DNA of 64,000 nt from Deltaproteobacteria bacterium. GTDB taxonomy: Bacteria; Desulfobacterota; Dissulfuribacteria; Dissulfuribacterales; QOAL01. The notes beneath the pieces are model-generated. The model was given only the letters and a program-made list of their open reading frames with translations. It searched no databases and was not told where the DNA came from. The position numbers and the translations under genes were made by a program. This document shows positions 25,304 through 53,990 of this stretch, piece by piece (position 1 is the first letter of the stretch; each line of letters starts with the position of its first letter). Location of the stretch: contig JALVJO010000038.1 of the NCBI GenBank assembly GCA_027028245.1, positions 48,496 to 112,495 on the forward strand. Direction: 5' to 3'.

Positions 25304-26731
25304 ATGAAACTGTTTGTCTCATGCCTTAATATTTCAATCTTTTTGACTGTACTCGTAGGATTGATGGTACCTGCCATTTCTTTTTGTGAAGACCTCTACG
25401 TGGATTGCTATTCCGGGAGAGATACAGGCAGGGCTTCTTCTCAAACACCATGGAAAACAATTGGGGCTGCATTAAAACATGCCAGAAATTCAGATGTAAT
25501 TTACATAGAGCCCGGCACTTATCACGAGTCCTTGAACCTTGCCATGATCCCCCTCAGGGGGGTCAGCCTTGTGGGAATATCTGACAACGGAAACAGGCCG
25601 GTTATTCACTCCGAATCTCCAGACACTGATACAATCTTTCTGGTCAACTATTATGGTGTGGTAAAAAATCTGGACATTACAGGTGCAGCAAACTCGCATG
25701 GAATAAACTGCATTGCAAATGGCGGCAGAAATCAGGCTGAAATCTCAAGATGTAATATTTACGGCAATAACGTGGGAGTGCATGTCACCACTGTTGGAAA
25801 CAGCAGTTCGGAGTGCATCCCTTTTATTCATGACAACAAAATATTTTCCAATGTCACACAGGGCATAGGAAATATGGGCCATTCAAGTGCCTTGATACAA
25901 AGAAATATTATAAATGACAATGGCAGCGGTGAGGCTGGAAATGGCGGCATCGGAAACAGGGATAATTCATCTGCTCAAATTATAGGAAATATCATTTATG
26001 CAAACAATCACTCAGGCATAGCAGTACGTGACCATGCCTCCCCCAAGATCGTGAACAACACCATATATAATCACAGTTTCTCCGGGAATCAGGCTGCTGG
26101 TATAAGGTTTGCCAACCCGCCCAATAATGACCCCACATCCATAATAAACAATATAATTGCGCAGAATACCTTTGGCTTACTTACAAAGCCTGGCAGTTCA
26201 TTGCCTGTCATTGATTATAATCTGGTTTGGAATAACTCGGCAGCCGACTATAAGGGATTCCAAAAGGGAGAACATGGCATATCTGCTGACCCGCTCATGC
26301 TGAATCCTGAAAATGGCGACTTTCATTTGACGGCAGATTCGCCATGCATAGATGCAGGCCTTACGAGCGATTTGTCAAAATATCCGGATTTTGACGGGAT
26401 CCAGCGGCCGGTTGGGGCCTCCACAGACATTGGTGCCTATGAATACATTGATGAGTCTGAATCTCCTTCAAGGCCGACGCCTCCAGTTATCGCAGCTGAA
26501 GTAAATGGACAGAATATAAATATCACCTGGAATCAGGTTCCATGGGCCAACCGTTATATTCTCTTTTATGCCCCAGAAGATATTAGTTACATAAACACCA
26601 TAAACTTGGAAAACCGCAAGGAATTTTCTACCAAATTATGGGATGGAGCCGCTTTTTTCGTGGCGGTTAAAGCATGCAATAATGAAGGATGCAGCGATTT
26701 TTCAGACATTAAATATCTTGAGATAAATTAG
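25304..26731 (+). CDS. Secreted right-handed beta-helix protein with C-terminal fibronectin-like domain
   Basis: A 475-residue protein with a signal peptide ending near SFCED. It begins DLYVDCYSGRDTGRASSQTPWKTI, the start of many pectate-lyase-like parallel beta-helix proteins, with about 10 N-rich coils (GNIIYANNHSGIAV). Positions about 335-375 hold the DAGLTSDLSKYPDFDG..RP motif common to these proteins. A C-terminal domain from about 390 (PPVIAAEVNGQNINITWNQVPWANRYILF) reads as fibronectin type III. Likely surface-exposed; no catalytic residues assigned. It follows the cytochrome pair after a terminator. Confidence 0.75.
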   Translation: MKLFVSCLNISIFLTVLVGLMVPAISFCEDLYVDCYSGRDTGRASSQTPWKTIGAALKHARNSDVIYIEPGTYHESLNLAMIPLRGVSLVGISDNGNRPVIHSESPDTDTIFLVNYYGVVKNLDITGAANSHGINCIANGGRNQAEISRCNIYGNNVGVHVTTVGNSSSECIPFIHDNKIFSNVTQGIGNMGHSSALIQRNIINDNGSGEAGNGGIGNRDNSSAQIIGNIIYANNHSGIAVRDHASPKIVNNTIYNHSFSGNQAAGIRFANPPNNDPTSIINNIIAQNTFGLLTKPGSSLPVIDYNLVWNNSAADYKGFQKGEHGISADPLMLNPENGDFHLTADSPCIDAGLTSDLSKYPDFDGIQRPVGASTDIGAYEYIDESESPSRPTPPVIAAEVNGQNINITWNQVPWANRYILFYAPEDISYINTINLENRKEFSTKLWDGAAFFVAVKACNNEGCSDFSDIKYLEIN

Positions 26732-26865: not shown

Positions 26866-28275
26866 TTAGAAATCCAACTGGCTTCTGATACCCCATATAT
26901 ATATATCATCTATCCTGGAATTTCCGCCGGCATTATCTATCCATTGAAAATCTGCACTCAGTGCAAAATACTGGTTCATCATGAAACGGTAGTAGGCCTC
27001 CACGTAGTTCTCATTTGCAGTGTGGTCATTGTCATCCTCATAATCATCTGTGAGCAGTGTCTGGCCGTATGCAAAACCAAAGGCATCACCTCCCCTGTTC
27101 CATAGGCCTCCATCCAACTCAAAACCCGCTGACCACGTGCGGTTAAAGGGAATCATCTCCCATGCGTCATCATCGCTGTTCCACACAGCACGATCATCCG
27201 TAAGGGTCTGGCTGTAGCGGGCAAAACCCTTGAGGCCTTCTATAAGTTCCTGATCAAAGGAAAGGCCCCAGCCCGTAAGGGAACTATCAGCAAGTTTTCC
27301 GGCCTTTTCATGTTCCATGCCCGGGACCTTAGCAAGGTCCTTGTTCTTGAGATATCCCCTTTTGTCAACCCAGCCATAAAACCTGTAGTTGCCGTTTCTG
27401 CCGAAAAGACCGGGCATGACGTTCATCTGCCCGGCTATCATCCCATCGTCAAAGACATTGTGCCACACGGTATCTTCGCCATGAGCCCGGACGCTTGCCC
27501 CAACAACCTTGAATTCCAGTAGATCAACGGGTCTTGCCCGCAACTGGAACGCAGGGCAGTAAAAATTGTCAGGCTCCGGGATGTTCATGCCCATGCTCTT
27601 TACAAATATATTCGAACTGAACTGGCTGGTCTCGTCACCTGCTACCTCGTTTTCATCAAAAAGTACGCTTATATCCATTTTTCCAATATCAAAACCGTAC
27701 CTGTCATCCAGGAAAGAGAACTCATAAAAGGCCTCGGATATGGTAAGGGCAGCCTCATCAAGGGCCGTGGCTGTCTTATAGGCATCATAATTGGGCACAC
27801 TGAAGCTGGGAACGTCATTGTTCAGGCCGTCTCCGTCACCACCCTCGAAATGGATAAAGAATTTTCCCCACTTGGCAAAGTCTGCATCCAGGTTGAGATC
27901 AAGGGTGTAAGAGGCATCCTGGGTAGACCTGATGTCTTCCAAGCTGTCCGTATCCCCGAGGGTGCCCATCAAGATGCCCGTGGCACCTCCTCCCAGGCTG
28001 AACCTGTCATACCAGTGTTCTTGCGGCTCGGACTCTTGTACCTGTGCCTCAGCTGCTGGGAGCGCCTCCTTTTCACCTTGGTGCTTAATGCGTGAAAGCT
28101 CTTGTTCAACACTTTCCAGCCTCTTGCTGAGATTCCTGTTTTCCTTCATAAGCTGTTTTACCATTTCTTCCAGTCTCTGCTCCCTCGGCGAGACACCTCC
28201 CCCTGCAAAAACATCGGCAAAGGCACCAAAGAACAAAACGATAACAAAAAAACACACAATTCTTTTCATTTTCAT
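26866..28275 (-). CDS. OprB-like outer-membrane porin under cobalamin-riboswitch control
   Basis: A 469-residue outer-membrane porin. After a signal peptide comes a coiled-coil stretch (about 30-68, with KENRNLSKRLESVEQELSRI) that may trimerise or bind peptidoglycan, then a carbohydrate-porin-like barrel. Diagnostic segments are GKMDISVLFDENEVAGDETSQF (near 200) and the last strand ending LDF. A cobalamin riboswitch lies directly upstream (28311-28552), so expression should fall when B12 is plentiful. It is therefore a candidate cobamide or cobalt-complex uptake porin, an inference from the riboswitch. GAGGGGG precedes the ATG. Confidence 0.75.
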   Translation of the reverse strand: MKMKRIVCFFVIVLFFGAFADVFAGGGVSPREQRLEEMVKQLMKENRNLSKRLESVEQELSRIKHQGEKEALPAAEAQVQESEPQEHWYDRFSLGGGATGILMGTLGDTDSLEDIRSTQDASYTLDLNLDADFAKWGKFFIHFEGGDGDGLNNDVPSFSVPNYDAYKTATALDEAALTISEAFYEFSFLDDRYGFDIGKMDISVLFDENEVAGDETSQFSSNIFVKSMGMNIPEPDNFYCPAFQLRARPVDLLEFKVVGASVRAHGEDTVWHNVFDDGMIAGQMNVMPGLFGRNGNYRFYGWVDKRGYLKNKDLAKVPGMEHEKAGKLADSSLTGWGLSFDQELIEGLKGFARYSQTLTDDRAVWNSDDDAWEMIPFNRTWSAGFELDGGLWNRGGDAFGFAYGQTLLTDDYEDDNDHTANENYVEAYYRFMMNQYFALSADFQWIDNAGGNSRIDDIYIWGIRSQLDF

Positions 28276-28310
28276 CCCCCTCGGTTATACACGGTTATAT
28301 ATTTTGGAAC

Positions 28311-28344
28311 AAAAAACCCGAAGCCATTATCTGACGGCTCCGGG
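28311..28344 (-). terminator. Riboswitch terminator hairpin
   Basis: On the minus strand CCCGGAGCC pairs with GGCTTCGGG across a 10-nt loop and is followed by a run of T. It is the probable switching platform of the cobalamin riboswitch. Confidence 0.75.
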
Positions 28345-28552
28345 CTGCCCGCTAATCCCGTCCACCTCGGATCAGGTTCAGGTCTCCGCTGAATCAAATC
28401 CTTCATCTTCTGCCTCCAGGTATCCTGACTCGTGGATCAACCTAATTTCTGAGCCTTCCCGTTGCATGAACAGTGGCATCGTCAGATTTCGTCCCCACTC
28501 ACAGTGGCGGGCCCGCTCTGGATTTTCACCAGATTCCCTGAAAGACAGAATG
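28345..28552 (-). promoter_or_regulatory. Cobalamin riboswitch
   Basis: The minus strand contains the conserved order of the B12 aptamer: CTGGTGAAAATCCAGAGC, then CCCGCCACTGT, then GCCACTG, GGGAAGG and the B12 box GAGTCAGGATACCTGG. The core is about 28410-28545. It is followed by a terminator and then the porin start, so ligand binding likely stops transcription. A GAACCTGATC stretch in the platform resembles a thiamine motif but lacks the rest of it. Confidence 0.88.
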
Positions 28553-28800
28553 AATGATTATTCATTTTAAGATCTTTGTGAAATATATGTCAACAGAAAT
28601 TCTTTACCATGACAAATATTTTTTGCAGTGAATCCGCCAAGACCTGGAGCAGTAATCTCCTGTCCCGGATTCGGCTCCAGTTTTTGCAGCAATCCAGATA
28701 AGTATGGGCAAGGCAGAATACTATCTTATCCGTTTACTGCTAAAATAATGCCTGCTGAAATGCCTACTGTTTGCCAAAGACTACTAAATAAGCAAACTAT

Positions 28801-29025
28801 GGGAGCATTCCTAATTTCCCCCCCATTTGTGCCATTGGCAAGGAAGGAGTGTTTCTTAAAAGGTTTCACCACAAGGAAGCCAACTTCAGCCGCAGTCAAG
28901 CCGCAAAGATTGGCCATGTCTGTATTCGAGAAGGATTTGAAATTTGCACAGCGTCTTGGTGAACCTTGAAAGAAATACACCCATCCTTGCCCTTCTTCAT
29001 CCAGGTACAAACCCGGAATGCCCCC
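28801..29025 (-). repeat. MITE-like element, copy A (225 bp)
   Basis: This 225-bp sequence matches 53750-53973 in opposite orientation with about 85% identity by eye. Both copies end in inverted repeats: GGGAGCATTCC at one end and GGAATGCTCCC (here GGAATGCCCCC) at the other. It carries no intact gene, although both copies keep a partly open frame. Size and structure fit a non-autonomous transposable element. It sits just after the gltA-type gene's stop. Confidence 0.65.
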
Positions 29026-53749: not shown

Positions 53750-53973
53750 GGGAGCATTCCCAGTTTGTCCCTGGACGAAGAAGGGCAAGGATCGGTGCAT
53801 TTCTTTCAAGGTTCACCAAGCCGCTGTGCAAGTTTCAAATTCTTCTCGAATACAGACATCGCCAATCACAACGGCTTGACTGCGGCTCAAGTTGGCTTCC
53901 TTGTGGTGAAACCTTTCAAGAAATACCCCTTCGTTGCCAGTAGCACAAATGGGGACAAACCTGGAATGCTCCC
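53750..53973 (+). repeat. MITE-like element, copy B (224 bp)
   Basis: Matches 28801-29025 in the opposite direction. Starts GGGAGCATTCC and ends GGAATGCTCCC, giving terminal inverted repeats of about 20 bp including AGTTTGTCCC. It carries no intact gene. It lies 17 nt after the stop of the MCP gene on the minus strand, so it also is at a gene's 3' end. Confidence 0.65.
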
Positions 53974-53990
53974 CATAGGCCAAAGGGAGG

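Follow-up and report, generated by a model that had tools for sequence, protein, structure and literature searches.

The window, the whole 64-kb stretch of DNA that was analysed, belongs to a draft genome of 205 contigs (G000, 96% complete) and carries on its minus strand an OprB-family porin gene headed by a cobalamin riboswitch leader. The features of this unit are:

28564..28593, (-): sigma-70-like promoter, TTGACA-18-TAAAAT (consensus match only, 11/12 bases)
28418..28539, (-): cobalamin riboswitch aptamer (RF00174, 89.9 bits, E 6.6e-21)
28377..28393, (-): P13-like hairpin TTCAGCGGAGACCTGAA, seen in the computed leader fold
28309..28346, (-): intrinsic terminator, 13 pairs and a T-run (leader fold and sequence)
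28276..28282, (-): Shine-Dalgarno-like GAGGGGG (read from the sequence)
26866..28275, (-): OprB-family porin of 469 aa, a single-gene unit (PF04966, E 2.6e-25)
28072..28188, (-): N-terminal helix or coiled coil after the signal peptide, residues 30-68 (AlphaFold2, moderate confidence)
27784..27846, (-): near-invariant acidic segment EGGDGDGLNNDVPSFSVPNYD, residues 144-164 (alignment A2 and the 55-row alignment)
26869..28002, (-): beta-barrel part, residues 92-469 (AlphaFold2, and Foldseek match to 16-stranded porins)

The aptamer and terminator stand directly before the porin gene, in the position, strand and order given by a first-pass annotation of this DNA. The aptamer score is far above the RF00174 gathering score of 31.5 bits, and an Rfam scan of the entire window returned the cobalamin riboswitch as its sole match. 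A covariance model built from 21 local riboswitches gives the aptamer 128.6 bits, a score from a training set that includes this aptamer itself. The promoter-like site lies just 5' of the aptamer. The hairpin loop GCGG is complementary to CCGC in the aptamer segment GGCCCGCC, a candidate L5-L13 kissing loop, and the P13-like hairpin occurs as CAGCGGRGACCTG in the leaders of most members of the order. The terminator, its 13 pairs and T-run read at 28346-28315, falls between the aptamer and the porin start codon, as expected of an RF00174 expression platform. In 11 other porin- or cbiK-type leaders a terminator hairpin is found ~55-75 nt 3' of the aptamer, its stem sequence differing among related leaders and its position being similar; of three further leaders scanned, L043 has a weak candidate, L142 a distant one, and L047 one immediately 3' of the aptamer. 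The leader fold has a modest dinucleotide-shuffle z-score (-1.6 to -1.8); the evidence for a riboswitch comes from its covariance score and from its conservation. The spacing of the Shine-Dalgarno-like element suggests that translation may start at the second ATG (28269). The leader thus shares with RF00174 riboswitches the aptamer core, the conserved boxes, the candidate L5-L13 pairing and a transcription terminator, but the usual outer-membrane targets of these riboswitches are TonB-dependent receptors, whereas the target here is an OprB porin. Regulation of the porin by a B12 riboswitch is well supported. Terminator-type cobalamin riboswitches normally switch genes off at high B12, and the window riboswitch would presumably respond to its ligand in the same OFF direction.

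The porin scores 90 bits against the PF04966 OprB profile (cut-off 22.9), and the Pfam search found no match to plug or TonB-dependent barrel domains, which places the protein outside the BtuB type. The description of the target as a carbohydrate-porin-like protein and not a TonB-dependent receptor is therefore borne out. An AlphaFold2 model made from nine sequences (mean pLDDT 62, moderate confidence) shows a signal peptide, a coiled-coil helix and a beta-barrel; with this moderate-confidence model the top PDB match in Foldseek is the Pseudomonas putida OprB (4gey, E 1.2e-16). A sequence search of solved structures gave chance coiled-coil matches only. The window protein has its sequence family and predicted fold in common with the carbohydrate-selective P. 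putida porin, but differs in its N-terminal coiled coil, its conserved acidic segments and its metal-gene neighbourhood, and sugar transport is not indicated. The cyanobacterial iron-porin subfamily NF033921 was tried and rejected (14.6 bits against a cut-off of 100). The downstream neighbour (25304-26731, +) is convergent with the porin, which leaves the porin alone in its unit and rules out read-through to another B12 gene as the real target.

A search for the same porin behind B12 riboswitches in relatives, proposed in the first-pass annotation, was positive both within the order and beyond it. OprB matches were found in 21 of the 46 genomes of the window's order, eight of the loci being cut by contig ends. 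When riboswitch and porin coordinates were compared, requiring an upstream position on the same strand, 13 of the 14 porins whose upstream DNA is visible, not counting feo-linked copies, had a B12 riboswitch 5' of the gene. The riboswitch directly precedes the porin in G000, G001 and G002. The commonest arrangement is riboswitch-cbiK-porin with a periplasmic-type cobaltochelatase (G006, G009, G011, G013, G014, G017 and G021; the G017 porin, split over two contigs, is presumably one gene). A pterin-binding gene lies between riboswitch and porin in G007 and G012, and CbiK, BtuCDF-like genes and CbiL do so in G008. Three loci are feo-linked (G000:C122, G017:C169 and G007:C47), and one (G044:C220) has neither riboswitch nor feo. 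Since the riboswitch-porin arrangement is conserved in relatives, chance is excluded as its origin. The CbiK proteins that head the operons have signal-peptide-like starts, consistent with the periplasmic CbiKp of Desulfovibrio. PMC4162548 lists a CbiKp gene. Elsewhere in the order, other genera have the riboswitch and cbiK followed by a different ~430-aa coiled-coil protein, Porin_4-like or unassigned (L026, L028, L031), as if the porin slot were occupied by unrelated porins; L027 has the same gene order, on a contig cut before any riboswitch.

The survey was extended to the flanks of 60 OprB loci of the phylum outside the order, and adjacency was measured on these loci. A regular-expression scan for riboswitches missed several known cases and was replaced by the local covariance model. 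An upstream same-strand B12 riboswitch was found at 12 of the 60 loci, eight of which were confirmed by an Rfam re-check. Seven combine the riboswitch with CbiMNQO (L131, L136, L142, L149, L150, L154 and L156), one with CbiK-CbiL (L137), and two have CbiK-BtuCDF-CbiL downstream (L140 and L148). The gene order is FeoB, riboswitch, porin in L116, and FeoB, riboswitch, CbiK, CbiL, porin in L129, whose riboswitch has weaker scores (41 and 27 bits). A generous background, set by an 8-kb window and no more than 6 riboswitches per 3 Mb, gives each locus a 0.8% chance; against it, 12 of 60 corresponds to P ~7e-14 with shared ancestry left in; a rough count by families still gives P ~7e-6. Another six loci (L103, L109, L110, L118, L123 and L128) show FeoB linkage and no riboswitch; linkage of OprB to feoB recurs across the phylum. 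At five loci (L104, L113, L123, L141 and L145) OprB lies near CbiM/Q/O-like genes without a B12 riboswitch; these are possibly nickel systems. In a quick maximum-likelihood tree of 55 porins, in which the deep branch order is uncertain and long branches are flagged, porins with the cobalt or riboswitch context form three or more separate groups, and the genus group of the window has as its sister the feo-linked paralogues from the window's family. Iron and cobalt contexts interleave on the tree; the same channel type has therefore moved between both.

Among the neighbours, CbiMNQO and FeoB are importers, of Co2+ and Fe2+ respectively, and CbiK inserts Co2+ into sirohydrochlorin. What these neighbours share is a divalent metal; Co2+ is the one tied to B12, and OprB proteins have precedents as iron porins, so Co2+ entry is favoured. 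The porin is most likely the outer-membrane door for the cobalt needed for B12 synthesis. More specifically, we propose that it is probably a divalent-metal porin, produced under B12 shortage, through which Co2+ would reach the periplasm. Plentiful coenzyme B12 would bind the leader RNA, the terminator would form and the porin would not be made; when B12 is short, transcription would continue past the leader and the porin would reach the outer membrane. There it would act as a passive divalent-metal channel, raising periplasmic Co2+ for B12 synthesis. In relatives, the incoming cobalt would arrive beside the signal-peptide-bearing CbiK or the CbiMNQO encoded in the same operon. The riboswitch at the window locus and the linkage to cbiK or CbiMNQO in relatives assign the porin to the B12 regulon as a predicted cobalt-uptake component; gene context points to Co2+ as its substrate.

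OprB-type iron porins are among the closest known systems. FeoP of Acidithiobacillus is an OprB-family ferrous-iron porin (PMC2631029); a passage of PMC545781 predicts a Fur-boxed OprB porin with feoAB in Geobacter sulfurreducens; and Slr1908 is described, in work cited in passages of PMC9723758 and PMC11126600, as an iron-selective OprB-like porin with experimental transport. With such porins known, the window porin appears as their cobalt-regulated variant. It is OprB-like as Slr1908/SomB are, though outside their subfamily (NF033921). The context of FeoP and the G. sulfurreducens porin, OprB beside feoAB, is shared by a second copy in the window's own genome (C122), which sits in a feoAB locus, is 80% identical to the window porin and has the same conserved acidic segments. 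The window copy, in contrast, is under a B12 riboswitch and has no feo neighbour. This raises a question within the cobalt-entry explanation, and not an exclusive rival to it: the channel may be a broad one for Fe2+, Co2+ and Ni2+ without selectivity, its regulation alone being specific to cobalt and B12. We regard this as a substantial possibility that falls short of even. It is favoured by the close paralogue, by the interleaving of iron and cobalt contexts on the tree and by the OprB loci near CbiM/Q/O-like genes that lack a riboswitch. That G000 retains both copies, each with its own regulator, could hint at a degree of specialisation; otherwise nothing contradicts it.

The porin had also been proposed to stand in for BtuB and to offer an alternative uptake route. 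Six Plug-domain receptors are found in the G000 genome, none behind a riboswitch, and in local alignments they are at most 35% identical to the riboswitch-controlled BtuB-like proteins of relatives; the porin is thus the only riboswitch-controlled outer-membrane gene seen in the draft. To this extent the first proposal holds for G000. As a general rule, replacement of BtuB is rejected: relatives carry both, with receptor genes behind separate riboswitches in G001, G002, G004 and G008 (L159, L161, L168 and L173), those of the same-genus G001 and G002 (L159 and L161) being on contigs other than that of the riboswitch-porin unit. The second proposal stands as uptake linked to both B12 and cobalt, but coexistence with BtuB and the neighbours CbiK, CbiMNQO and FeoB favour cobalt ions over cobamides as the substrate. 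Entry of cobamides, cobinamide or tetrapyrrole precursors through the porin, to feed a BtuCDF-like transporter, is unlikely. Porin, BtuCDF-like and CbiL genes do share one riboswitch operon in L045, L140 and L148, and the lack of a riboswitch-linked BtuB in the 96%-complete G000 draft fits such a role. However, same-genus relatives keep their BtuB-like receptors, many porin operons have CbiK or CbiMNQO without BtuCDF, the closest paralogues are FeoB-linked, and cobamides are larger than what porins normally pass. What speaks against cobalt entry is that in G000 the window porin and the cobalt genes lie in separate operons; a periplasmic-type CbiK and BtuCDF-like genes lie behind a second B12 riboswitch on contig C168. 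A weak B12-riboswitch-like element on C29 (L049, 4658-4786; 31.8 bits with Rfam, 64.5 bits with the local model) is 3' of a receptor gene, not 5', and precedes lexA and a DnaE-like PHP gene, an odd target.

It is improbable that the protein is a general or carbohydrate porin whose B12 control serves envelope or metabolic adjustment and not metal uptake: PF04966 is named for carbohydrate-selective porins, many other OprB loci of the phylum have no metal neighbour in the scanned flanks, and acidity is not special to metal-linked members, but the linkage to CbiK, CbiMNQO and FeoB is repeated in separate tree branches and the annotated operons have no sugar genes between riboswitch and porin. Barrel acidity and net charge did not separate metal-linked from other OprBs in the phylum, and charge was rejected as a metal-porin marker.

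The favoured cobalt-entry explanation adds an outer-membrane component to a known set of genes. A Desulfovibrio cbiK-btuCDF-cbiL operon with a B12 element is described in part of PMC545781, and several relatives here have the same riboswitch, cobaltochelatase and ABC transporter together with the porin, which the passages of the B12 section of that paper do not mention. The main text of a 255-genome survey of RNA regulons (PMC3766115) does not contain the word porin, and full-text searches of the literature open without subscription turned up no porin assigned to a cobalamin-riboswitch regulon. According to a 2021 review, no cobalt-specific outer-membrane receptor has been confirmed (PMC7689651). 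A porin that recurs in B12-riboswitch operons beside a cobalt chelatase or a cobalt ECF importer is a named, testable candidate for outer-membrane cobalt entry. It also shows a single channel family changing between iron and cobalt regulons, both forms being present in the same genome. It is possible, if rather doubtful, that these porins form a dedicated Co2+-conducting class, derived from OprB-type metal porins that entered B12-riboswitch operons in three or more separate lineages of one phylum. Such a class, if true, would be the first cobalt-specific conduit of the outer membrane.

Two other observations were made. Family B12 riboswitches also precede a gene for a ~275-aa pterin-binding (MtrH/AcsE-like) methyltransferase (L048, L160, L166, L172 and L174), followed in three of these loci by a sodium:solute-symporter-like gene. 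A dispersed repeat of ~220 bp (85-89% identical, ~40 copies in the genome) occurs in the window at 28720-28940, in the gap that separates the riboswitch promoter from the gltA-like gene upstream of it, and at ~53755-53978, and yields similar spurious ORFs.
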